Assembly: GCA_003635265.1 (NCBI GenBank)
Contig: PYIZ01000053.1
Location: 62,001 to 126,000, forward strand
Length of the DNA: 64,000 bases
Source: Candidatus Poribacteria bacterium
GTDB lineage: Bacteria > Poribacteria > WGA-4E > PCPOR2b
Direction: 5' to 3'
The notes under the pieces were generated by a model. That model ran no database searches and was not told the origin of the DNA. It saw only the letters and a list, made by a program, of their open reading frames with translations. Positions 7,438-49,910 of the stretch are shown here, piece after piece. Position 1 is the first letter of the stretch. The number at the start of each line of letters is the position of its first letter. A program made the translations under genes and the position numbers.

Positions 7438-9354
7438 ATGAAACTAGAAATCCAACGAGCCAGAAATCCAAAACGAACGGAACGGCTAACACTTCAGTCG
7501 ATTCTATTCCGTCGATTGGTCTATACTATTATAGCATTTACTCTATTTACTGCATCCCCTATTGCGAGGTCGAATGTCGAGCAACACCCAAAAATCTCCC
7601 CAGCCATTCGCTTCCATGTGCCTAGCGCAAGGCTAAAAGTATGGGTACTCTTTGCCGACAAAGGATTCTCGACAGCGGCCGATCAACACAGCGCGATAGA
7701 TCAGTATCAAACCCAGATGTCAAATAGAGCGAAGTATCGCCGCGAGTTACGGGGGCATCTCCGTCGTCCTGATGTTACGGATTTGCCCATCGAATCTCGC
7801 TACATTGAGGCAGTGCTTCGATCGGGAAGCAAACTCCGAAGCCAGAGTCGATGGTTGAACGGCATAGGCTTGGAAGCGACGGAGCAGGAGATTCGCGAAA
7901 TCGCTCGTCTGTCGTTTGTCCGCGCGATTGATCCTATTCGTCAGTATACCATGTTTTTTGAAGTACCTAGCCCCAGTTCATTTTCACCGAGTGCGCCTTC
8001 ACCTGCCAAGGTTTTAGATTATGGCAACGCTAAGGCACAAATTACACAAATTCAGGCGGACTTCCTACACCAAGAAGGCTTTTTAGGAGAGAGCATTGTT
8101 ATCGGGCTACTGGATACAGGGTTCAATCTGGAACATACCGCGCTTGAACATGTGGATGTTATCGCCCAACACGATTTTGTCAATGATGACGTTAACACTG
8201 CCGATAAGGTAGATCAGGATGATCCGCATCAGGACGATCACGGGTCAGTAGTATTGGGTATCCTCGCTGGCGACGCGCCGGGACAACTCATCGGTATTGC
8301 ACCCCGCGCCCGCTACCTTCTTGGGAAAACAGAGCTAGTTTCGCTGCGTGGTGTTGTGTTTGAGCGGCAAATCGAAGAGGATTGGTGGGTTGAGGGACTT
8401 GAATGGCTCGAAGAGATGGGCGCAGATGTGGTAAGCAGCTCACTGGGCTATTTTGATTGGTATCGTTTTGCAGACTTGGATGGAAAAACCTCAAAAGTCA
8501 CGGTTGCCGCGAACCTTGCGGTTCAAAAAGGGATGGCTGTCGTCATTGCTGCTGGAAATCTGGGTGCCCAGCCACTGAGCGATGGCTTGGGGCTGCAAGG
8601 TCGAATCAACCCTCCCGCAGATGGGTTTGACGTGCTCGCTATCGGTGCTGTAGACCGCGACGGGCGGGTGTTACCTTTCAGTTCGCAAGGGCCCACCTAC
8701 GATGGCCGAACTAAGCCGGATCTCACGGCGATGGGTGCAGGGGTCACAAGCATTAATTCAACCACCCGTGAGGGTTTTTCGAGTGATCATAACGGCACGT
8801 CATTCGCAACACCTCTGGCTGCGGGCGCTGTTGCACTGCTAATTGAGGCTTTCCCACTAGCAACCGTGCGGGATATAGTCAACACACTTCGTATGACGGC
8901 TTCGCGAGCGAACAAGCCCGATAATATCGCCGGTTACGGGATTATTCGCGCCCGCGCGGCGTATGACAGATTACTCAATCAGTTTGGGGGTACAGGGCTT
9001 CCCAAACCCGTTGCAGTTCAACCAACCTTGGATTTTCTGCCGACAACTTTGGGCAAACTAAAACGGGGCGAACTCTTGCAGAACTATCCCAACCCTTTCA
9101 ATCCTGAAACTTGGATACCCTTTAAGTTGACATCTTCCGGTCAGGTAGTGATTCGGATCTACAGTCTTAATGGCAAATTGGTTAATGCCCTTGAACTTGG
9201 GAGGTTGCCGGAGGGCGATTATTCTGCAAAGCATCGTGCGGCTTATTGGAATGGACGTAATCTAAACGGTGAACGGGTGGCAAGCGGCACCTATTTTTAC
9301 GTCCTAGAATTTCAAGGCGAAACCGCTACTCGGAAGATGATTGTGCTGGAATGA
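7438..9354 (+). CDS. Subtilisin-like (S8) serine peptidase with C-terminal sorting domain
   Basis: Catalytic motifs 'GLLDTGFNLEH' (Asp), 'DDHGSVVLGILAG' (His), 'NGTSFATPLAAG' (Ser); C-term 'LLQNYPNPFNPETWIPFKL...AYWNGRNLNGERVASGTYFYVL...RKMIVLE'. Confidence 0.95.
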   Translation: MKLEIQRARNPKRTERLTLQSILFRRLVYTIIAFTLFTASPIARSNVEQHPKISPAIRFHVPSARLKVWVLFADKGFSTAADQHSAIDQYQTQMSNRAKYRRELRGHLRRPDVTDLPIESRYIEAVLRSGSKLRSQSRWLNGIGLEATEQEIREIARLSFVRAIDPIRQYTMFFEVPSPSSFSPSAPSPAKVLDYGNAKAQITQIQADFLHQEGFLGESIVIGLLDTGFNLEHTALEHVDVIAQHDFVNDDVNTADKVDQDDPHQDDHGSVVLGILAGDAPGQLIGIAPRARYLLGKTELVSLRGVVFERQIEEDWWVEGLEWLEEMGADVVSSSLGYFDWYRFADLDGKTSKVTVAANLAVQKGMAVVIAAGNLGAQPLSDGLGLQGRINPPADGFDVLAIGAVDRDGRVLPFSSQGPTYDGRTKPDLTAMGAGVTSINSTTREGFSSDHNGTSFATPLAAGAVALLIEAFPLATVRDIVNTLRMTASRANKPDNIAGYGIIRARAAYDRLLNQFGGTGLPKPVAVQPTLDFLPTTLGKLKRGELLQNYPNPFNPETWIPFKLTSSGQVVIRIYSLNGKLVNALELGRLPEGDYSAKHRAAYWNGRNLNGERVASGTYFYVLEFQGETATRKMIVLE

Positions 9355-9506
9355 TCGGTGGAAGCCGGACCATTACTCGTCATGCGAGACCCTGACATCT
9401 AACTTTTTGGTTGGCAATGAGAAGATTTTCGGTTATAATTGGACTTCGGTTTTAGCCGACTAAATTTTGGAATCTACACTAATCACTACATACTAGGAGG
9501 CGTAAA

Positions 9507-10184
9507 ATGGGATTCTTCAACCGTGTATCCACTATCTTCAAATCCAATGTAAATGCTGCGTTGGACCAAGCAGAAGATCCGGAAAAGATGTTGAATCAGA
9601 TTACGAACGAGATGCAGGAACAACTCGTCAAAGTCAAGCAGCAAGTTGCTACCGCTATCGCACAGGAAAAGCGGCTTCAGAAAGACTACGAAAACGAGCA
9701 GGAACAAGCAAACGGCTGGGAACAGAAAGCGACAATTGCTCTCCAGAGAGAGAACGAAGACCTTGCACGCGAAGCGCTGACTCGCCGCAATGAGCATGCA
9801 AGCGTTGCAACAGGCTACAAGGAGCAGTGGGAGAAGCAGAAACAGGCGGTCACCATGCTCAAGGATAATCTCCGAACGCTTGAGCGGAAAATTGATGAAG
9901 CAGGCCGTAAGAAGAACCTGCTGATTGCGCGACAAAAACGGGCGAAAGCACAAAAGGCGATCCATGAAACGATGGCAGGCATGAAGGATAATAGTGCTTT
10001 TGCGACTTTCGATCGTATGGAGCAGAAAGTCGGGGATATGGAAGCGCGCGCCGACGCTGCATCAGAAATGTCTGAGTTAAGCCGTGATCCACTTGAGGAA
10101 GAATTCGCAGCCCTTGAAACCGGGAATGTAGACGACGACTTGGCAGCGCTGAAAGCCAAGATGGGCGGCGACAAGAACGCTTAA
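9507..10184 (+). CDS. PspA/IM30-family membrane-stress protein
   Basis: 225 aa coiled coil; 'MGFFNRVSTIFKSNVNAALDQAEDPEKMLNQITNEMQEQLVKVKQQVATAIAQEKRL'. Confidence 0.93.
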   Translation: MGFFNRVSTIFKSNVNAALDQAEDPEKMLNQITNEMQEQLVKVKQQVATAIAQEKRLQKDYENEQEQANGWEQKATIALQRENEDLAREALTRRNEHASVATGYKEQWEKQKQAVTMLKDNLRTLERKIDEAGRKKNLLIARQKRAKAQKAIHETMAGMKDNSAFATFDRMEQKVGDMEARADAASEMSELSRDPLEEEFAALETGNVDDDLAALKAKMGGDKNA

Positions 10185-19008: not shown

Positions 19009-20034
19009 TCACATCAAATGCTTCTTGAGAAATGCCAGCCCCGGCTCAACGTCCACCTCATGGCCCCCTTCAAAGTAGTCCAACTCAAGGTTATCTGGAC
19101 GACCGGCTGCAGCATAGATCTGCTCAATATGATTAAACGCAGTTTTGGCATCTGACGCGATGAAACAACTATCGTCCGATGCTATTTGCGCCATGCAGGG
19201 ACGCGGTGCAATTAATCCCGCAACATCCGATATGTCCCCATGTCCACGCAGCCCAAACATGAATTGAGAACCGCAAGTATTTCCGCGTCCCCGATCGTTG
19301 AGCGCATCGGTCAGGGTGCTGAGGTAGCAAACGATAACCGCCGCCTTAATCCGTTGATCCAAAGCAGAAACGTAGGTTGTCATCGTTCCACCGAACGAAC
19401 AGCCCATACAGCCAAGCCGGTTCCCATCTACATCGGGTCGGGATTGTAAGTAGTCCAAGCACCGTTGGGCGTCACAGATATGGAGTTGGAGTAGTTGATA
19501 GCCAAAGTAACCGTACGCCATATAAGCGACATTGCATCCGTCACGCCCGGGGCGGCGAACCCATTCATCCCGATCTTTACGTTCACCAAAGGTGCGCCAG
19601 TCCGGTGCAATCGTGACGAACCCCTGCCGTGTCAACTCGACAGCGAACTGTTTCTGGTAATCCTCACCTATCCCGGCGAGCGGATCTTTTCCGATCCCGT
19701 GCCCGTGTGCACAGAGCACCGCCGGGCAACGGTTGTCCGGACCTGCTCCTTCAGGACTCAGAACATAAGCGGGAATAGAGGAGAAGGGATCGGGATTGAA
19801 GATAATCTTCTCCCGTGTATATCCGTCCATCTCTGTCCGTTCTAACACCTCGACCTCTAGCGGAATAGCTTCCGGTTTCGGACCCAAGTCTCTGACTAAC
19901 TTACGTCGAAAGGTTTTGCGCCATTCCTGCCACTCCGCTTTTGATGTCCCAGTGAAATGCAGAGGTGGAATCTGTTTCAACAGGTGCTCTACACCAAGTT
20001 CCGCAGTTAAAAAACGGGGGGTTGTATTTGCCAT
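19009..20034 (-). CDS. Alpha/beta hydrolase (acetyl xylan esterase / dienelactone hydrolase-like)
   Basis: 'PAVLCAHGHGIG', 'DYLQSRPDVDGNRLGCMGCSFGGTMTTYVSALD'. Confidence 0.85.
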   Translation of the reverse strand: MANTTPRFLTAELGVEHLLKQIPPLHFTGTSKAEWQEWRKTFRRKLVRDLGPKPEAIPLEVEVLERTEMDGYTREKIIFNPDPFSSIPAYVLSPEGAGPDNRCPAVLCAHGHGIGKDPLAGIGEDYQKQFAVELTRQGFVTIAPDWRTFGERKDRDEWVRRPGRDGCNVAYMAYGYFGYQLLQLHICDAQRCLDYLQSRPDVDGNRLGCMGCSFGGTMTTYVSALDQRIKAAVIVCYLSTLTDALNDRGRGNTCGSQFMFGLRGHGDISDVAGLIAPRPCMAQIASDDSCFIASDAKTAFNHIEQIYAAAGRPDNLELDYFEGGHEVDVEPGLAFLKKHLM

Positions 20035-20084: not shown

Positions 20085-20160
20085 GGCTCATGTTAAGAAA
20101 TAGTGCAAAGAAACCGAGTTTTTTCTTCAAAACTCGGTTTCTCTTCGTTCTTTGCACTTT
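20085..20160. mobile_element. MITE family A copy 3, right end truncated
   Basis: GGCTCATGTTAAGAAATAGTGCAAAGAAACCGAGTTTTTTCTTCAAAACTCGGTTTCTC...CTTTGCACTTT; outer right arm missing. Confidence 0.8.
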
Positions 20161-20404
20161 TAGGCTCTGGTGCTTCTTTATAGAAAATGTCTTGCTCAAC
20201 TTCACGCGCAAACGTCAACCCCGCTCGTGATAGTTCAAGTGCTAACCCTTGTTGATAAATCACTTCTTGGAAGCCGTTGCCTAAAAACGTATGGACCTCA
20301 AAAGCAGCCCCGATAATCTTGTCAGTGATATCACCGTATTTTAGATTGTGGTTAATTGTTTGTATCCTGTGTAGGTATAGAATAGCGGATTGCCGCAGAT
20401 TCAA
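20093..20404 (-). pseudogene. GxxExxY protein truncated by MITE copy 3
   Basis: 'LKYGDITDKIIGAAFEVHTFLGNGFQEVIYQQGLALELSRAGLTFAREVEQDIFYKEAPEP' then a MITE-encoded tail 'KSAKNEEKPSFEEKTRFLCTIS'. Confidence 0.8.
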
Positions 20405-20470: not shown

Positions 20471-20863
20471 TTACTGAATCCATTGCTGTATATGGTCGGC
20501 GATTATCTCAAGATCGGTGATTGTCCCATCCGCAATGTTAAAGCCGAGTTCAATAATCGAATCTTCAATGTTGCGATGAAGGGAACAGCCATTCAAAACT
20601 AAAAATGTGAGCGCGCAGGTCAGACCGATACGTTTATTCCCATCGGAAAACAGATGTCCAGTAACAGTGTGATGGGCATATACGGCAGCCTTTTGGGGCA
20701 AGGTCGGAAACAGTTCTGTATCACCCAATTTCGCGCTAACTATTTCAACCAAATAGTGTAACTGATTTTCATTTAACAACTGATAGCTGCCTACATGCCT
20801 CTCGGCAACCCTCAGAATTTCCGAAATTGTCAAATACCTCAAGGCTTGCCCAGCGTTTTCCAT
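20471..20863 (-). CDS. Fic/Doc-family toxin
   Basis: 130 aa; Fic motif 'HLFSDGNKRIG'; 'AAVYAHHTVTGHLFSDGNKRIGLTCALTFLVLNG'. Confidence 0.9.
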   Translation of the reverse strand: MENAGQALRYLTISEILRVAERHVGSYQLLNENQLHYLVEIVSAKLGDTELFPTLPQKAAVYAHHTVTGHLFSDGNKRIGLTCALTFLVLNGCSLHRNIEDSIIELGFNIADGTITDLEIIADHIQQWIQ

Positions 20864-21048
20864 GCTCGATCGTATTTTCTTACTATCTCGTCTAAGACGC
20901 TTTCAAAATCGGTCGCCGATTCGTGGGTGGCTTCCTGCCCTTCCTTGTCTCGCAGATAGGTCAGATAGTCAACCCCCGCTTTCAATTGTTCTGTCGAGAG
21001 TTGCTTGATTAACTCAACCGCTTGCTGTTGTAGGTCTGCTTTTCGCAT
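20839..21048 (-). CDS. Antitoxin partner of the Fic/Doc toxin
   Basis: Short protein from internal Met (MRKADLQQQAVELIKQLSTEQL...) overlapping the toxin start by 25 bp. Confidence 0.65.
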   Translation of the reverse strand: MRKADLQQQAVELIKQLSTEQLKAGVDYLTYLRDKEGQEATHESATDFESVLDEIVRKYDRAWKTLGKP

Positions 21049-21224
21049 GGGGCTCCTCTTTCGTTCTGTTTGCCCTCTATTGTTTGAATAGTGGATTGGC
21101 ACGGATTATTGGTATATTAACCCAAGTTGTTAGTTGATAAACCAGGCAGGGGGCGTACCTTCCAAATCGCGACTCTGACGCTTGATATTTCCCATTGATT
21201 GTGTTCAACTCACGTTGCGACCTA

Positions 21225-21296: not shown

Positions 21297-21405
21297 GTCG
21301 CATTGGGATCATGCCTGATATATTGAGAATCCGTAATTCTCTTCCTTCATCGTCTGAATCGCGGATTAACGGATTACACGGATTAAAAAACATCGGCGGT
21401 GATGC

Positions 21406-22404
21406 TTATTGCTGGGGTGTCAACATTGCGGCGATGTCTGCCGGTAGTTTAATGCCTATTATCCGCTCAAAGTCCGGGACGCTCGCGTAGTCGTTATGAA
21501 ACGAAGTGATGATATTTACACCCATGTCCCTGGCAGTTGTTAGATCAAACTTGGCTCTTTCCCATTCGCTGAGGTGTAACCATGCTTCGCCGCGACTCGC
21601 ATAAGACTCAGCAAGGTCAGGTTTCCGTTGTATCGCTCTGTTATAATCTTCAATCGCACGGGCATACTCGCCTGTTTTAGTGTAAGCATTGCCACGATTG
21701 TTATAAGCTTCAACAAGCTTAGGTTTTATTTCTATCGCTGTGGTATAGTCTACGATGGCACGGTCATAATCGCCTTTTTCCCCGTAAGCTCGACCACGAT
21801 TGTAATGTGCCTCAACGAGATCCGGCTTTAGTTGTATGGCTTTGTCGTAATCTGCGATAGCTCGGTCAATCAGGCCCTTTTCTCGATAAGCGGCACCGCG
21901 ATTGCTGTAAGGTTCAGCATAATTTGGGTTGAGCTTTATTGCTCTGGTACAATCTTCAATCGCACGAGCATAATTGCCCTCACTGCGGTAAGCTCCACCA
22001 CGATTGTTATAGGCGTAGGCATAATTGGGGTTCAGCTCTATCACTTTGGTAAAATCTTCAATCGCACGGGCAAAATTGCCTTTAGCGTAGTAAGCCATAC
22101 CACGACTGTTATGGGCAATGGCATAATTGGGTTTGAGTTGTATCGCTTTGTTCAGATCTTCGATGGCACTGATAAAATTGCCTTTAGCGTAGTAAGCAAT
22201 ACCGCGATTGTAATAGATGTTGGCATCATCCGGTTTGAGTTGTATTGCTTTGGTAAAGTCCGCGATAGCACGGTCATACTCCCCCTTTTTGTCGTAAGCA
22301 ATACCACGACTATAATATGCCCTGGCGAGGGTAAGTTTATCTGGCTGTAACGCCCCAACTTCAGCGTGAGAGGTTATGCTTCGTGAGCTCATTCTAAATC
22401 TCAT
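21406..22404 (-). CDS. TPR repeat protein (possible C-terminal part of a broken FRG-TPR protein)
   Basis: 332 aa with about 8 34-aa TPRs; C-term 'IKLPADIAAMLTPQQ' shared with the downstream-oriented TIR-TPR paralog. Confidence 0.85.
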   Translation of the reverse strand: MRFRMSSRSITSHAEVGALQPDKLTLARAYYSRGIAYDKKGEYDRAIADFTKAIQLKPDDANIYYNRGIAYYAKGNFISAIEDLNKAIQLKPNYAIAHNSRGMAYYAKGNFARAIEDFTKVIELNPNYAYAYNNRGGAYRSEGNYARAIEDCTRAIKLNPNYAEPYSNRGAAYREKGLIDRAIADYDKAIQLKPDLVEAHYNRGRAYGEKGDYDRAIVDYTTAIEIKPKLVEAYNNRGNAYTKTGEYARAIEDYNRAIQRKPDLAESYASRGEAWLHLSEWERAKFDLTTARDMGVNIITSFHNDYASVPDFERIIGIKLPADIAAMLTPQQ

Positions 22405-22651
22405 TTTTCTGATCGTGCCCTAGGAGCTGCGCTTTCTCTATTAAGTCCTGATTGATTCGGAGGAGCCAAGCCGGATTATTTCTCGCCCCTTTTGGTAAGC
22501 GGCGATAGGCAGATGCTTCTATTTCGTAGGACTCGTTTGAAACACCCCGAAACAGATATTGACCGTCATTGAATTGTGCTGCCCATTTGATAAAACTATT
22601 CAGCGTTTTGACACGGCTCGACGCTTTTTCTGCCATACTTTTTGTTCTCAC
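22394..22651 (-). pseudogene. FRG-domain N-terminal fragment
   Basis: 'TLNSFIKWAAQFNDGQYLFRGVSNESYEIEASAYRRLPKGARNNPAWLLRINQDLIEKAQLLGHDQKNEI*'; domain cut short, overlaps the TPR ORF by 11 bp out of frame. Confidence 0.65.
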
Positions 22652-22734
22652 GCAATGGTGATTTCTTCACTGTCTGAATCGCGGATTGTCGCGGATTCAG
22701 GGATTACACGGATTAAAAACATCGGCGGTGATGC

Positions 22735-25095
22735 CTATTGCTGGGGTGTTAGCATTGCGGCGATATCTGCCGGTAACTGAATGCCATGTTGTTCAATTCC
22801 TTGCTCCTTGGCAATTATCAGGTCTATTTTCGCTTTTTCCCGTTCTCCCAAGCGTAGCCATACCATACCACGATTATAATAGGCTCCGGGATAATTGGAT
22901 CTCCGCTCTATTGCTCTGGTATAATCTTCAATGGCCCGGGGATAATCTCCTTTTTTGTTGTAAGCTGTCCCTCGTCCGCAATAGGCTTCAGCATAGTTGG
23001 TATTGGATTGTACTGCTTTGGTGTAGCTTTCAATAGCACGATCATAATCACCTTTGTTGATGTAAGCATTCCCACAATTGTTATGGGCCATAGCATAATC
23101 TGGTTCAAGTGTTACTGCCGCATTATAGTCATCAACGGCACGGTCAATCTCACCTTTAGCATTGTATGCTACACCCCGATTGTTATAGGCTTCTGCATAA
23201 TTGCGATTCAGTCGTATCGCCTCAGTATAGTCATCAATGGCACGGGGATAATCGCCTTTTTTCCAGTACGCCTTACCCCGATTGTTATAGGCTTCTGTAT
23301 AATTGCGATTCAGTCGTATCGCCTCAGTATAGTCATCAATGGCACGGGGATAATCGCCTTTTTTGTCGTAAGCGTTGCCACGATTGTAATAGGCTTCAAC
23401 ATAGTCTGATTTGAGTGTCACTGCCGTATTATATTCATCAATGGCACGATCAACCTCACCTTTATCACTGTAAACCGCACCGCGATTGTTATAGGCGTTG
23501 GCATAATCAGATTTCAAGTCTATCGCCTTGTTATAGTTACTGATGGCATGGTCAAAATCACCTTTAACATGGTAAGCGGCCCCAAGACCAAAATAGGCTT
23601 CAGCATAATTGGACTTGTATTGTATTGCTTTAGTGTACTCGCCCATAGCACCGTCAATATCACCTTTGTTGACGTAAGCAGCCCCACGACCACAATAAGC
23701 TTCAGCATAATTGGACTTGAACTGTATCGCTTTGGTATAGTTCTCGATGGCAAGGTCATACTCGTCTTTGTGACTGTAGGCACTACCGCGATTGCTATAA
23801 GCCTCAGCATAATCAGGTTTCAAGTTTATCGCTGTGCTCAAATCTGCGATTGCACGGTCATAATCGCCCTTTTTGATGCAGGCACTACCGTGATTGTAAT
23901 AGGCGTGGGCAGAATCTGGTTTCAGGAGTATCACCTTAGCAAAGTCATCAACGGCACGGTTATAATCGCCTTTTTTATCGTAAGCACTACCCCGATTGTT
24001 ATAACCTTCTACATAATTGGGTTTCAGGTCTATTGCTATGGTATAGTCACCGATAGCACGGTCAATCTCACCTTTTTTTTCGTAAACAACACCGCGATTG
24101 TTATAGGCGAGATAAATAGGCCTCAAGTCTATCGCTGTGTTCAAGTCTTTGAGGGCACGGTCATAATCACCCATTTTGCCGTAAACGCCACCACGATTGC
24201 TGTAGGCTCCTGCGTCATCAGGTCTCAGTTGTATTGCTTTGGCAAGGTCCACAATGGCATGATCATACTCGTTTGTTTCTTGGTAAGAAATACCACGATT
24301 GTTATAGGCACCAGCATAATCCGGTCTCAGTTGTATTGCCTTAGTAAAGTCCACAACAGCAAGACCATGCTCGCCCGTTTCTTGGTAAGAAATACCACGA
24401 TTGTTATAGGCATCAGCATAATCCGGTCTCAGTTGTATTGCCTTGGTAAAACCTGCAATGGCAAGATCATATTCACCCCTGCTGTTGTAGATATTGCCGC
24501 GATTGTTATAGGCTTCAACCAGCTGCGGATATAATCTTAATGCTTCGGTATAATGCTCAACAGCTCTGTCATAATTTCTTCTATTTTGATGGGTCAGACC
24601 ATTGAAAAATTCCGCCACGGCATTTAGATTTACTGATTGTTCGACAGTATCTGCATTTATAGTTTCAGATGCAGCAGGTTGAACAATTTCACGGATACGC
24701 TGGAGGTTGACATCCCAATCCTCATAGAGACTAACATACTGAATATCCCGTAAGGTTTCTCCTGGACCAATGGGAAGATCAGGTATTTCACATTCGTTCA
24801 ACTTGACGGGGATAAACCATGCTTGGTCAATAGGTCGCAGACGAAGTTCTTCAATGGCGATCCTCAGTTCTTCGTTCATGTAGGTCCGATCGCGCTCGTA
24901 ATATTCCTTTGAGAAACACGCAATGAAAAAAGCCCCTTGTTGAATAGCCCGGCGAATTTCCCGCTTCCAGCGAGCTCCCGGAGCAAGATCTTTTCGGTCC
25001 AGCCAGACTTGGATGCCGTGTGATTTGAGTTCTTGGTAGAGATTTTTAACTATTTCTATATTTTCTTTAACGTAAGAGATAAAAACTTTTTTCAT
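22735..25095 (-). CDS. TIR-domain protein with a long TPR array
   Basis: N-term 'KKVFISYVKENIEIVKNLYQELKSHGIQVWLDRKDLAPGARWKREIRRAIQQGAFFIACFSKEYYERDRTYMNEELRIAIEEL'; then roughly 17-18 34-aa TPRs; ends 'IQLPADIAAMLTPQQ'. Confidence 0.93.
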   Translation of the reverse strand: MKKVFISYVKENIEIVKNLYQELKSHGIQVWLDRKDLAPGARWKREIRRAIQQGAFFIACFSKEYYERDRTYMNEELRIAIEELRLRPIDQAWFIPVKLNECEIPDLPIGPGETLRDIQYVSLYEDWDVNLQRIREIVQPAASETINADTVEQSVNLNAVAEFFNGLTHQNRRNYDRAVEHYTEALRLYPQLVEAYNNRGNIYNSRGEYDLAIAGFTKAIQLRPDYADAYNNRGISYQETGEHGLAVVDFTKAIQLRPDYAGAYNNRGISYQETNEYDHAIVDLAKAIQLRPDDAGAYSNRGGVYGKMGDYDRALKDLNTAIDLRPIYLAYNNRGVVYEKKGEIDRAIGDYTIAIDLKPNYVEGYNNRGSAYDKKGDYNRAVDDFAKVILLKPDSAHAYYNHGSACIKKGDYDRAIADLSTAINLKPDYAEAYSNRGSAYSHKDEYDLAIENYTKAIQFKSNYAEAYCGRGAAYVNKGDIDGAMGEYTKAIQYKSNYAEAYFGLGAAYHVKGDFDHAISNYNKAIDLKSDYANAYNNRGAVYSDKGEVDRAIDEYNTAVTLKSDYVEAYYNRGNAYDKKGDYPRAIDDYTEAIRLNRNYTEAYNNRGKAYWKKGDYPRAIDDYTEAIRLNRNYAEAYNNRGVAYNAKGEIDRAVDDYNAAVTLEPDYAMAHNNCGNAYINKGDYDRAIESYTKAVQSNTNYAEAYCGRGTAYNKKGDYPRAIEDYTRAIERRSNYPGAYYNRGMVWLRLGEREKAKIDLIIAKEQGIEQHGIQLPADIAAMLTPQQ

Positions 25096-25314
25096 TTCCC
25101 TGTTCTCCTTAATCTAGTGCCCGTCAAATATTGCTTAACCCAATCTTCCCTTCAGTTGAGTAACTTTCCGCACAATATCAGTTTCTCCATTGTCAGAATC
25201 GCAGATTATCGCGGATTAAGGGATTACACGGATTAAAAAATCCGCGCAATCCTCCCCGATTTTATCCCCGATACATCGGGACTAAGAAGCGGGATGTGCC
25301 ACTTAATCCGCGAT

Positions 25315-44917: not shown

Positions 44918-47377
44918 CTACTCCACCGATTTTTTAATTTCGCTCTTTATCAAGTCGATTATGTTCATCCGTTGGAGAGCGGCACGAATCTGATCAATCG
45001 GAATTGGGTCAGCACTTGCCCCCCAAACATCGAAACGCGCCTCATTGTCAACCGCGACTGCGAGCAGCCGTCCGTCGTGGTAAACAAGCGCGTCGCCTCT
45101 GATGATTTCGCCCGGTTTGAAAGGTCTCGCAACCGTCAACGTTGTCACTTTTCCGTGGTTGTCAATTTCGAGTTCCATGACGCCCACCGACCGTTCAGTT
45201 GGCCGTTCAACGGCGCGCCGATGAATTTCCGGGGGTAAATTGGGAAAATTGGGATAGCCGCGTGTGGAGATCGCCGCTATATTTGGGTACGTGTAACCAT
45301 CTTCTGGATTGGGTAATGGAATCGGAATGTACTCCCGCAGGTCCTCCACGTTTCCAAGCACGACGGGTCGCAAATCTGTCTGCCCGTCGACCTTCACTAT
45401 TGCTAATCCGCTGTCCCAGTCGATAGCGACAACTTTAGCGGATCGATAATCGACGATTTTGACACGGATGGTCTCTGCTTCTGTCACGTTTGCAGGCACG
45501 AGGATATGACCGACTTGGCTCAGAATAACGCCCGTGAAGATTTCACCGTCTACTTTGACCGCCACGAACGATTTATGTGCGTCAGATAGATCTTCTGCAT
45601 ACATTTCGCGTTTCCGGTTTGCTTCAAGCGAATGTCTATTGGCTTCGGTTAATGGCGTTTCTGCGATGAGTTTCTGAAATTCAGGGATGTCCTGAATCGC
45701 TGCAAAACGTTCCGGTTGTTCTTTTGCATAGTTGATGGCAGAGTTATTGTCATCCTCATCGTGTGCAACCGCTATCTGAAACAGCGCCCACGTTTTTTCT
45801 CGGTCGCCTTGCCGCGAGCAGAAAGTCGCCAACTCAAGCGCCTCACTTACGATAACATCTCCTAGGCTTGGAGTTGCTTGGCTCGCTTCGACAATCCGAT
45901 CATATGCTTCATTCATCCATGCCGTTGCGTCACCCCCTCGCGGTCGTTTTTGGTAGAGCCCCGACATCATAAGTTCAAATTTGCGATAGCGAACCTCCCA
46001 CATGATGTAGGGATTGTCTGGCATGAAAGCGAGGAGTTTTTCGTATTCGGCAATGACTTCTTCCTGTTCGTCTACCCTATTGGCACGAAGTTGACTGATT
46101 CGGGGAATGATACGTTCGCCAGCAACGTCTGTGTCCTCCGCGAGCAATGCTTTTACCAAGTGTTCGACTGCCGAATCTTCCAGCGCGAAACCGTGTGCAC
46201 TCTCTCGAAGTATCCCCGCTTTATCAAGGATGACGTAGTAGGGCCAACCATCGACACCGAACTGATACGGTACGAGCTCGGGGTCAACGAGCAGGTGAAT
46301 GCCCGGCATCGCATGTGTTTCGACGAACTGCTTCAGCTTCGCTTCACTGCTTTGGGAACAGACGGTGACTAAGACAAAATCGGGATTTTCGCCGTACATT
46401 TTGTGCAACTGCTTGAGGTTCGAAATTTCCCCTCCCGTTTCGTCATTACTCACCGTTCGACCATCTCGCGTTGACCAGTGATAGAGCACAACCACTTTGC
46501 CACGCAAATCCTTCAACGAAACAGGGGTGCCATACACGCTAGTATGCGAAAATGCGGGGGCAGGTTTACCTAGGATAAGTTCGGCGCGAAGCAAGTTAAA
46601 TTCGTCCCATTTGGCTGAGTCCCCCATCCTTGCGTAAATTTGTCCTTTGCGGTCGTACACCTCGGGCAGCAACGCCGGGTCATCAATCCTATCCCACTCC
46701 GCAAGGGCTTCCTCGAATCTGAATTGGTTTTCAAGGCGATACGCACGGAGTTTACGGACCTTGTTGGCGTATTTCGAGGTTGGATGTTTCAAGAGAAACG
46801 CTTCAACGCTAATCTCAAATTCGTCATCCGATTTGAGATTGCGAACGTATACAAGTTTCTGATATAGAATTTCATCGTATCGTTCGCTTTCTGCATAGGT
46901 GTTGAGGAACTGCTCGCAGAGTTGCAGACCACGTTCCCACTTCTGCTGATATTGTTCGCGTCGCGCTGCTCTCTCTGCCTCCGTTGGATTTTCGGGTAGC
47001 GGATCCGGTTGGAACTTGTACACAGCCTGAATCTCCTGATACAGTGCTTGCTCCGGATCCACCGCTTCTGCCACCTGTACCACACCTATCGGCATAGCCA
47101 AACAGATAAGTGCGAGCAGCCCTATTACCACCCCTACCTTCGTCATGGGCATCCGATTCCGGCTTTCGGCAAGAATCGTTTGGAATTGCTCCCCAATTTT
47201 TGATGGTCGTACCATCACCACAGCGGACCGCAAAATAGAGCGCGCCATCGCTGGCTGACGACGCAGAATAAATCCGAATAATCCCGCCACAACGATAATC
47301 AGAAAACTTTTCATCGTAGCGTCAGTCAAGAATTTCAGCTGCAGGTTTATTTTTAGCGTTTCAATCAACGGTATCAT
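44918..47377 (-). CDS. M56-derived membrane protein lacking the peptidase domain; TPR-like, thioredoxin-like and trypsin-like segments
   Basis: N-term 'MIPLIETLKINLQLKFLTDATMKSF' matches the next gene's N-term; redoxin-like 'LILGKPAPAFSHTSVYGTPVSLKDLRGKVVVLYHWSTRDGRTV...YYVILDKAGIL'; C-term 'VDGEIFTGVILSQVGHILVPANV...'. Confidence 0.8.
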   Translation of the reverse strand: MIPLIETLKINLQLKFLTDATMKSFLIIVVAGLFGFILRRQPAMARSILRSAVVMVRPSKIGEQFQTILAESRNRMPMTKVGVVIGLLALICLAMPIGVVQVAEAVDPEQALYQEIQAVYKFQPDPLPENPTEAERAARREQYQQKWERGLQLCEQFLNTYAESERYDEILYQKLVYVRNLKSDDEFEISVEAFLLKHPTSKYANKVRKLRAYRLENQFRFEEALAEWDRIDDPALLPEVYDRKGQIYARMGDSAKWDEFNLLRAELILGKPAPAFSHTSVYGTPVSLKDLRGKVVVLYHWSTRDGRTVSNDETGGEISNLKQLHKMYGENPDFVLVTVCSQSSEAKLKQFVETHAMPGIHLLVDPELVPYQFGVDGWPYYVILDKAGILRESAHGFALEDSAVEHLVKALLAEDTDVAGERIIPRISQLRANRVDEQEEVIAEYEKLLAFMPDNPYIMWEVRYRKFELMMSGLYQKRPRGGDATAWMNEAYDRIVEASQATPSLGDVIVSEALELATFCSRQGDREKTWALFQIAVAHDEDDNNSAINYAKEQPERFAAIQDIPEFQKLIAETPLTEANRHSLEANRKREMYAEDLSDAHKSFVAVKVDGEIFTGVILSQVGHILVPANVTEAETIRVKIVDYRSAKVVAIDWDSGLAIVKVDGQTDLRPVVLGNVEDLREYIPIPLPNPEDGYTYPNIAAISTRGYPNFPNLPPEIHRRAVERPTERSVGVMELEIDNHGKVTTLTVARPFKPGEIIRGDALVYHDGRLLAVAVDNEARFDVWGASADPIPIDQIRAALQRMNIIDLIKSEIKKSVE

Positions 47378-47528: not shown

Positions 47529-49910
47529 CTACTGCGCTGGTTTCTTGCTTTGACTTTCCATCAACTCAATCATGTTCATTCGCTTGAGCGCGGCACGAAT
47601 CTGGTCGATTAGTAGAGGATTGGTAATTGCCGACCCAAACTTGTAACGCACTTCATTGTCAACGGCAACCGCAAGCAACCGTCCGTCATAGTAGACGAAA
47701 GCATCGCCTCCAATAATTTTACCAGTTGGAGTTCCAGCTTGCAGTGCTGCTACTTTCCCACCATCGTCGATTTTGAGTTCTTGGATACTGCCTCCCCGAT
47801 AGGTTGGGGTTTCAAAAGCGTTTTGATGAAATTCTGGAGGCAGATTAGGGGCATTGGGATAGCCGCGTGTGGAAATCACATTTATGGTCAAGTAGGTGTG
47901 ACCAACTATGGTCGGGGAGGTGGAACCAACCTCCGGGTAGAGATGCGGAATCGGGGCGTATTCCTGCAGGTCGTCTATGTTTCCAAGAACGATGGGACGT
48001 AGCTCCGTCTGCCCATCGACCTGCACGACTGCCAACCCGCTCTTCGAGTCAACGACGACAACCTTAGCGGGTTGATAATCGCCAATTTTGGCGTGAATCG
48101 TCTCTGCCTCTGTCACATTTGCAGGCACAAGAATATGACCGACTTGACTCAGGATAATCCCCGTGAAAATCTCACCGTCCGCTTTCACCGCCACGTACGA
48201 TTTAAGGGAGGCAAAGAAATCTTTCCAGTACATATCCTGTTTCCGGTCTGCTTCCATGCGTCGCTTGTCTGCTTCTATAATCTGCGAAAATTCGGGTGAA
48301 GATTTACCTAGGATAAGTTCGGCGCGAAGCAGATTAAATTCCTTCGCTTTTTCCGAATTGCCCATCTCGGCGTAAATGGTTGCTTTTCTCTCGTACTTTT
48401 CAAGTAGCAATGCTGGGTCATCAATCTTATCCCATTCAGCAAGAGCTTCGTCGTATTTGAACTGAAACTCAAGGATATACGCACGGCGTTTACGGAGATT
48501 ACTGGTATATTTCGAGGCCGGATATTCTGAGAAAAATGCTTCAACACCTTTTTCAAATTCAGCATCGCGTCTGAGCAAAGAGATGTATGTAAGTTTTTTA
48601 TAAAAAACTTCCTCATATCGGTTACTCTCCAAATAAGTATTAAGGAACTGCTCGCAGAGTTGGAGACCATGTTCCAAGTGCTGTTGAAGCTGTTCCAGTT
48701 GTGCTGCTTGCTCCGCTTCTGTCGCGGTTTCCGGCAGCGGCTCTAGTTGGAAATTCTCTGCCGCTTGAATTTCCTTATACAATGCCTGCTCTGGCCCCAC
48801 CGCTTCTGCCAACTGCATCACCCCCATCGGCACAGCAAAACAGATAAGCGCGAGCAACCCTACTGCTACTGCAATTCTTGTTATCGGACGCCGATTCCGG
48901 TTTTCGGCGAGAACTGTTCGGAGTCGCCCTTCAATTTTTGACTGCCGCGCCATCGCTACCGCTGACCTTGTGGCAGTGTTTATTTTTTTAATATTTCGCA
49001 CAGCATCGAGTAGATGTTGGGCGTAATCAGTTGATTGATACCCCGCGTTGAGTACGTGGTCATCACAGGTACGCTCTACTTCTGTCCGCATTCGACGTGC
49101 CGCAAACCAGACGAGCGGGTTAAACCAGTACACCGCACACGTTATCTGTGCTACTGTCTGCATCAACCAATCCTGCCGCTGGATGTGTGCCAATTCGTGC
49201 AGCAGTACAGCGCGTTGCCGTTCGGGTTCCCATTCGTCCGCATCGGCAGGTAACAGAATCACCGGTCGAAACAACCCCCACACCATCGGCACCGTGACTG
49301 CGTCGCTCTTACGCATACTGACCGCACGCTTCCAATCGGGAGGCACCTGTGAAATTAAACCATTGAAATCGTCGCTACAGGTGGAAACGTGCCAGACGGC
49401 ACCAATTTCCATCAGCAAACGGGCGATAAGAAACAGTGTGCCTGCCGTCCAACACACCGCTATCCAATCAGTCCAATGAAGCGAGGCAAGACCTATCCCC
49501 AACGTGTTTGATTGTCGGGTGGCAATCTCGCTAGTAGTGGCCTCCGGTTGAATGGGTGTCGGCGTAGCCTGCACTGATGACCTAGTAGCTGTTGGTAACG
49601 GGCCTGATGCTATTGGAACAGGGGAGACGGCTGCCTGCCTATTATCTGTCAGCTGGTCTACCTGAAATCGCTCAGGGGTTGCCGGCAGAACACCAACTTC
49701 CCACTGCGGAAGTGTGAGCGAGAAGAACGGTACAGCCAAGCATCCCACCAGTGCCAAACTCCAAACCAAACCGCGCACCGCCGCCGAGTGGCGACGCAGA
49801 ATGAAGCCGAGTAATCCCGCCACGGCGAACATCGCGAAACTTTTCATCGTAGCGTCAATCAAGAGTTTCAACCATATGTTTATTTCGAGAGTTTCAATCA
49901 ACGGTATCAT
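47529..49910 (-). CDS. M56-family (BlaR1-like) membrane metallopeptidase with C-terminal trypsin-like domain
   Basis: 'AVLLHELAHIQRQDWLMQTVAQITCAVYWFNPLVWFAARRMRTEVERTCDDHVLNAG'; extended C-terminal 'ADGEIFTGIILSQVGHILVPANVTEAE...'. Confidence 0.9.
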   Translation of the reverse strand: MIPLIETLEINIWLKLLIDATMKSFAMFAVAGLLGFILRRHSAAVRGLVWSLALVGCLAVPFFSLTLPQWEVGVLPATPERFQVDQLTDNRQAAVSPVPIASGPLPTATRSSVQATPTPIQPEATTSEIATRQSNTLGIGLASLHWTDWIAVCWTAGTLFLIARLLMEIGAVWHVSTCSDDFNGLISQVPPDWKRAVSMRKSDAVTVPMVWGLFRPVILLPADADEWEPERQRAVLLHELAHIQRQDWLMQTVAQITCAVYWFNPLVWFAARRMRTEVERTCDDHVLNAGYQSTDYAQHLLDAVRNIKKINTATRSAVAMARQSKIEGRLRTVLAENRNRRPITRIAVAVGLLALICFAVPMGVMQLAEAVGPEQALYKEIQAAENFQLEPLPETATEAEQAAQLEQLQQHLEHGLQLCEQFLNTYLESNRYEEVFYKKLTYISLLRRDAEFEKGVEAFFSEYPASKYTSNLRKRRAYILEFQFKYDEALAEWDKIDDPALLLEKYERKATIYAEMGNSEKAKEFNLLRAELILGKSSPEFSQIIEADKRRMEADRKQDMYWKDFFASLKSYVAVKADGEIFTGIILSQVGHILVPANVTEAETIHAKIGDYQPAKVVVVDSKSGLAVVQVDGQTELRPIVLGNIDDLQEYAPIPHLYPEVGSTSPTIVGHTYLTINVISTRGYPNAPNLPPEFHQNAFETPTYRGGSIQELKIDDGGKVAALQAGTPTGKIIGGDAFVYYDGRLLAVAVDNEVRYKFGSAITNPLLIDQIRAALKRMNMIELMESQSKKPAQ

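Follow-up and report, generated by a model that had tools for sequence, protein, structure and literature searches.

In the present work, we examine two tetratricopeptide repeat (TPR) proteins encoded side by side in Candidatus Poribacteria bacterium (assembly GCA_003635265.1, contig PYIZ01000053.1), within a stretch of 64,000 nucleotides that is called the window below. One of them, the TIR-TPR protein, carries an N-terminal TIR domain; the other, called TPR_A, is overlapped at its start by the remnant of an FRG gene. We will show that both genes are members of an extensive TPR family that has no name yet and is marked by a conserved three-helix C-terminal cap, and that FRG and TIR have replaced each other repeatedly on this scaffold. 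The family probably constitutes an abortive-infection scaffold that is linked to restriction and exchanges its NAD+-targeting effectors, and at the present locus a TIR protein would have been added to an FRG unit that was broken afterwards. A first, sequence-only reading of the locus described FRG and TIR as N-terminal domains on paralogous TPR scaffolds; the domains, the shared protein end and a shared 3' block stand, while the assignment of FRG to the N-terminus of TPR_A does not.

Results and Discussion

The TIR-TPR protein contains about 17 TPRs (Pfam TPR_1 6.7e-148) behind its TIR domain (TIR_2 E 8.2e-25), and it has the C-terminal end LPADIAAMLTPQQ in common with TPR_A, as can be seen in both translations. 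This end belongs to a cap formed by the last ~65 residues, which follow the pattern W-L-x-L-x-EW, then F-x-N-D-Y-x-S-V-x-D-F-E, then G-[IV]-x-L-P-x-D-I-A-A-M-L-T. AlphaFold2 models the cap region as two TPRs and three short helices, with a predicted local distance difference test (pLDDT) score of 97. When this model was used in a fold search of the PDB, the TPR part gave matches and the three terminal helices matched nothing. No NCBIfam model matched the terminal 37 residues, and the best Pfam matches listed for the full protein included only repeat-type models and no cap family. The two caps differ in length, as ~17 residues (NIITSFHNDYASVPDFE) present in that of TPR_A are missing from that of the TIR-TPR protein.

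Eight cap proteins are encoded in the genome that contains the window (5.3 Mb, of the sponge-symbiont type), and the cap is found in 67 of the 85 genomes of the phylum, with a maximum of 17 copies per genome. The terminal motif is neither universal among TPR proteins nor private to the pair, since it was confirmed in 8 of 68 TPR-like candidates from a first look. A scan of named genomes also located the cap in metagenome-assembled genomes of Latescibacterota, Entotheonella, Gemmatimonadota and gammaproteobacteria, and some of the loci outside the phylum belong to sponge symbionts.

For the analysis of the effectors, 164 distinct cap proteins were sampled by cap similarity, and the effector proportions therefore describe the sample and not the phylum. 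FRG is fused to 52 of these proteins and encoded by a separate open reading frame (ORF) directly upstream of another 40 (~92 together), whereas TIR is fused in 31 cases and separate in two (33 together), so that about three quarters of the cap proteins have one or the other as a fused or associated effector. Three of the 40 upstream FRG ORFs are themselves FRG-TPR cap proteins, and several of the separate pairs overlap by ATGA. A search for further domains on TPR arrays ending in LPADIAAMLTPQQ, as suggested by the sequence-only reading, returned FRG, TIR, DUF2971 and a ~160-aa domain with no Pfam match, called U160, which is carried by six of the 164.

U160 occupies the effector position at the N-terminus in L099, L105, L072, L084, L097 and L123 (L-numbers are our handles for loci, G-numbers for genomes), and in L072, L084 and L097 the protein adjoins an FRG-TPR-cap gene. 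DUF2971 is found at the same position in the cap protein L074:4092-6905, which falls within a TIR clade of the cap tree and lies beside a TIR-TPR-cap gene. Single proteins in L107, L112 and L079 have DUF4268 and Mrr_N domains C-terminal of the cap.

The tree built from the cap and the final repeat comprises 60 rows labelled FRG or TIR, and nine label changes are counted on it (7-10 in the bootstrap). One FRG/TIR change sufficed in none of 200 bootstrap trees, and a single origin is rejected by the approximately unbiased (AU) test (p=0.035). The tree with all 164 rows has 18 changes, compared to a mean of 29 for shuffled labels; all these counts are approximate, because many forks of the tree are unresolved. 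Within the genome under study, all three TIR_2 domains sit on cap proteins, and the five FRG matches are divided among cap units (three), a TPR protein that ends differently (one) and a stand-alone FRG (one). FRG is thus not restricted to this cap, as seen from the FRG-TPR protein C45 (L025:4299-5843), which ends in AEAKHDFQMALKLAEQ. These sequence comparisons support the suggestion that effectors are swapped on a retained scaffold, and they do so more strongly across the phylum than within the window.

As to the effector itself, the catalytic glutamate of the TIR domain, in the NEEL motif, is kept in the window TIR and is invariant across 15 aligned relatives. The solved sequences closest to this domain are 3h16, Cat1, Roq1, 8qlo and 7uxr.

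We now turn to the neighbouring genes. On the minus strand, the order from 5' to 3' is helicase, methyltransferase, TIR-TPR, FRG ORF, TPR_A, antitoxin-like protein and Fic/Doc toxin (Table 1). The link to METHYLTRANSFERASE was evaluated with the 40 top-ranked homologues of the window methyltransferase, taken without regard to their neighbours and omitting those without room downstream. Among the 38 with downstream sequence, 17 are followed within ~500 bp on the same strand by a TIR or FRG(-TPR) gene, and in two of these (L242, L271) the genes of the methyltransferase and the effector overlap by 4 bp. Such homologues are present in 58 of the 85 genomes of the phylum, and the pairing with an effector extends to Latescibacterota, where L172 has TIR in a 4-bp overlap, and to Entotheonella, where L187 has FRG. 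In addition, nine cap proteins, six of them bearing TIR, have a C-terminal domain akin to the specificity domain of the methyltransferase family, at an identity of at most 45%; Pfam TaqI_C was matched on one representative (L102) and not on another (L087).

The history of the island can be followed by anchoring its location on the flanking hydrolase (19009-20034). The closed sister genome G022 has no island at the anchored site, and it is also missing in G018, which is weaker evidence because of masked bases there. In G021, the island comprises an SNF2 helicase (89% identity), a methyltransferase and, in the effector slot, a TIR-TPR-cap protein that ends in a TaqI-like specificity tail; the corresponding genes of G020 are an SNF2 helicase (86%), a methyltransferase (71%) and, before the contig ends, an FRG-TPR-cap protein whose tail is antitoxin-like. 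The methyltransferases of the window and of G020 are sisters with full support, which means that a TIR-TPR gene follows one and an FRG-TPR gene the other. Since the FRG subtype of G020 differs from that of the window remnant, more than one exchange is implied. Two further genes were seen upstream of the SNF2 helicase in G021 (L153:2538-8122), namely an ORF matching PADLOC models associated with pAgo/Aga_SIR2, and a ParA-like ATPase, as read from its sequence.

An arrangement of this kind could also arise if independent defence genes had clustered in one island, the methyltransferase and helicase being functionally unlinked to the TIR/FRG-TPR genes. The genome indeed has eight cap genes and one such methyltransferase, and Fic/Doc and other defence genes share the island. 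However, the 4-bp overlaps, the close spacing in 17 of 38 cases, the recurrence of the methyltransferase-effector pairing in three phyla and the domains on TIR-TPR-cap proteins that resemble target recognition domains argue for a connection, and we consider independent clustering unlikely.

The FRG sequence in the window is not the N-terminal part of TPR_A. It is a separate ORF that overlaps the TPR_A gene, and it is broken, as follows from comparison with the intact pair in G022; a fusion of FRG to TPR_A is accordingly rejected. In G022, FRG (L069:7445-8368, 307 aa) and the TPR-cap protein (8365-9720) are two ORFs with a 4-base overlap. The window ORF corresponds to residues ~18-98 of this FRG protein, its closest relative, with 85% identity over 82 residues. 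The match to intact FRG domains ends at residue ~83 and the DNA similarity to FRG-TPR relatives at nt 250, and ~200 FRG codons are deleted. The domain is incomplete, with 15 bits for Pfam FRG against a cut-off of 25 in the genome-wide scan. With the PADLOC model PDC-S15 the remnant gives 8e-06, compared to 9e-31 for the intact protein of G022, and complete FRG genes are present in the relatives of the FRG/TPR unit.

The TPR_A ORF is intact. Its N-terminus, MSSRSITSHAEVGALQPDKLTLA, is of the same kind as that of the G022 TPR-cap protein and resembles the N-termini encoded in G022, L124 and L161, where the TPR ORF overlaps an intact FRG gene; by comparison with these three, the native start is probably at 22392. 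The window bases GATTTAGAATGA would fit the final FRG codons (DLE, stop) and the overlap with the TPR gene.

Another option is a toxin-antitoxin-like relation, with the TPR-cap protein holding the overlapping FRG in check and TPR_A being the restrainer that was left behind in the window. About 40 FRG/TPR-cap pairs do exist as separate ORFs, several with the ATGA overlap, and in the window a Fic/Doc toxin adjoins an antitoxin-like protein, with an antitoxin-like tail being fused on some TPR-caps. The scaffold, however, carries FRG as a fusion in 52 cases and TIR in 31, which speaks against this option, and we regard it as improbable.

Next, we consider how the two units came to lie together. 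The near-identity of their 3' flanks, pointed out in the sequence-only reading, is borne out by the DNA alignment, which gives 98 bp at 89.8% identity, spanning the last ~50 coding and ~46 downstream bases. The second-best match between both 3' regions has 70% identity over 180 bp. The sequence GCATCACCGCCGATGTTT occurs exactly at both 3' sites and nowhere else in the 5.3-Mb genome. Part of the flank, ggattacacggattaaaaa, is a repeat, the exact 19-mer GGATTACACGGATTAAAAA being present three times genome-wide and in one orientation. The copies start at 21371, 22701 and 25221, so that each effector-TPR unit is bracketed by direct repeats. As all three exact copies are at this locus, a widespread dispersed repeat was rejected as an explanation of the flank; diverged copies of the 19-mer or flank lie close to the cap gene C49 and the FRG-TPR gene C38. 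Recombination at the 3' ends, as hinted at by the shared block and the direct repeats, may have brought the units together or exchanged them.

A simple tandem duplication, in which an effector-TPR gene is copied in place and one copy swaps its N-terminus, would likewise leave such a block and common repeats. In G022, a stretch of 524 bp is common to a TIR-TPR gene and an FRG/TPR unit at 93% identity. Recent duplication of a 3' end is more evident there than in the window, which means that the mechanism proposed in the sequence-only reading does operate in this genus. For the window, only the local 3' block of that proposal holds. The TPR bodies are not sisters, as the C-terminal part of TPR_A groups with the FRG-TPR protein of G020 (support 99/95; 69% aa identity over 305 residues) and not with the neighbouring TIR-TPR protein. 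Furthermore, caps that share a locus resemble each other no more than caps from different loci of one genome do (p=0.38), a value that also leaves a general homogenisation of caps within loci without significance, and FRG is a separate gene. The tree and the cap comparison reject a pure tandem duplication, and the duplication scenario in general appears quite unlikely here.

Proposed Model

On the basis of these results, we propose that the TPR-cap family is a common sensor or adaptor for exchangeable, probably NAD+-consuming effectors (TIR or FRG), which would be supplied either as an N-terminal fusion or from an overlapping upstream ORF. At the present locus, the effectors would be part of a defence island together with the HKD-SNF2 helicase and the Eco57I/type IIG-like methyltransferase, a DNA-acting pair that may recognise or restrict foreign DNA. 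The TPR protein would sense infection or a failure of the DNA arm, upon which TIR would deplete NAD+ and the cell would stop. In the window lineage, the TIR-TPR unit would have been placed between the methyltransferase and the FRG/TPR unit, joined via the repeat-bearing 3' ends, and the inactivated FRG may represent an effector replacement in progress. The family itself, its recurrent effector changes, the gene linkage and the loss of FRG are shown by the data above, and the NADase activity, the trigger and the antiviral role are the inferred parts of this model; for Frg, a place in the ADP-ribosyltransferase (ART) superfamily and a potential NADase function have been proposed (PMC9503650).

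It should be mentioned that several results weigh against this proposal. No recognised effector was found for 29 of the 164 cap proteins (another four are truncated at the end of a contig), the cap tree is based on a short alignment of 98 columns and has many open forks, and most cap genes of the window genome are not beside its single methyltransferase of this type, eight caps being present. Finally, an attempt at the FRG structure gave a pLDDT of 61 with AlphaFold2 and no PDB match in Foldseek; the ART fold of FRG is a proposal from the literature.

That the TPR proteins are instead eukaryote-like, serve sponge-host contact and lie by restriction genes through chance is very doubtful: Poribacteria TPR proteins have been discussed as host-interaction proteins (PMC3909097) and some cap loci outside the phylum come from sponge symbionts, but about three quarters of the cap proteins are coupled with the cytosolic effectors TIR or FRG, the methyltransferase linkage is repeatedly tight, overlaps included, nine cap proteins have methyltransferase-type specificity domains, and no signal peptide is evident at the N-termini inspected, as judged by eye.

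It is conceivable, although we put this forward tentatively, that the family is an undescribed class of immune receptors, that is, a restriction-coupled scaffold on which an NAD+-destroying effector is exchanged as a module, sometimes with a methyltransferase-type specificity domain. In that case, many 'eukaryote-like' TPR proteins of Poribacteria and of some other uncultured bacteria would be antiviral receptors rather than host-contact proteins. The proposed scaffold would provide a testable system behind the phylum-wide expansion of TPR genes, hitherto read mainly as sponge-host interaction. It would also offer a natural series in which two unrelated domains, TIR and FRG, both probably directed at NAD+, alternate within a single operon slot of a common scaffold, allowing a direct test of whether the trigger is set by the scaffold and the killing chemistry by the effector alone.

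Table 1. Coordinates of the features of the locus (positions in the window).
Feature	Position	Strand	Remarks
TIR-TPR-cap protein, 786 aa	22735..25095	-	TIR ~24646-25095, then TPR array, then shortened C-terminal cap
FRG gene remnant	22394..22651	-	separate gene, first ~83 codons; ~200 codons lost
TPR_A, TPR-cap protein, 332 aa	21406..22404	-	Pfam TPR_1 3.1e-80; partner of lost FRG
Shared 3' block, copy A	21359..21456	-	98 bp
Shared 3' block, copy B	22689..22785	-	pairs with copy A
Direct repeat GGATTACACGGATTAAAAA, copy 1	21371..21389	+	
Direct repeat GGATTACACGGATTAAAAA, copy 2	22701..22719	+	
Direct repeat GGATTACACGGATTAAAAA, copy 3	25221..25239	+	5' side of TIR-TPR gene
Eco57I-type adenine methyltransferase, type IIG-like, 1187 aa	25315..28878	-	Pfam Eco57I 1.4e-28; PADLOC REase_MTase_IIG 8e-55
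HKD/PLD-SNF2 helicase, 1120 aa	29362..32724	-	Pfam Helicase_C, SNF2, PLDc_2; PADLOC C3a139 HKD+Snf2 2e-105, DrmD 1.6e-35
Antitoxin-like protein	20839..21054	-	a homologue forms a tail on TPR-cap proteins of G020, G018
Fic/Doc death-on-curing toxin	20471..20863	-	Pfam Fic 1.6e-08; NCBIfam DOC_P1

Some further observations were made in the window. A GxxExxY protein (NCBIfam TIGR04256, 2.7e-14) at 20093-20404 adjoins the Fic/Doc pair. The tail homologous to the antitoxin-like protein at 20839-21054 is fused onto the TPR-caps L156:163-2481 and L066:6506-7582, in G018 beside Fic/Doc. Farther away, the adjoining large proteins at 44918-47377 and 47529-49910 have N- and C-terminal stretches in common and are apparently tandem paralogues, the former having seemingly lost its M56-like peptidase part.

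Comparison with Known Systems

The helicase resembles DrmD, and the methyltransferase resembles PglX, DrmMI and type IIG enzymes, which relates the island to DISARM, BREX and type IIG systems. The NCBIfam scores are far under the cut-offs, however (DrmD 148 vs 610, PglX 40 vs 500), no DrmA/B/C or Brx genes were found in the island and no other drm gene was recognised between 20 and 35 kb, and the TIR/FRG-TPR component sets the island apart from DISARM and BREX. The PrrC anticodon nuclease guards a type I restriction locus and is similar in being an abortive effector housed in a restriction operon as a back-up, but it differs in effector chemistry, scaffold and methyltransferase class.

With the TIR effectors of Thoeris (ThsB) and short Argonautes, the cap family shares a TIR with the conserved glutamate; PADLOC assigns the TIR type C21 to ThsB (1.7e-27) and the window TIR to Aga_TIR (3.6e-13). 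Here, in contrast, TIR is fused to long TPR arrays, and beside the window TIR, where the neighbours are the methyltransferase, SNF2 and Fic/Doc, no ThsA or Argonaute partner was seen. The PDC-S15 phage-defence candidates (PADLOC; FRG, PF08867) have the FRG domain in common with the family, in which FRG is instead joined to or coupled with the TPR-cap scaffold and alternates with TIR.

In the literature searched, which leaves many subscription papers outside, we found no description of the TPR-cap scaffold, the FRG/TIR alternation or the methyltransferase link. The principle of interchangeable effectors on a constant TPR-bearing region is already known from the EAD10-type TPR/GreA-B-C/PIN conflict system, which has 13 interchangeable N-terminal effectors, TIR included (Kaur et al. 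2021, PMC8195603). Neither GreA/B-C nor PIN was among the best 25 Pfam matches of each window protein or in the tested C-terminal tails of relatives. Compared to that system, the cap family is distinguished by another C-terminal cap, by FRG as its commonest effector and by the link to an Eco57I-type methyltransferase.

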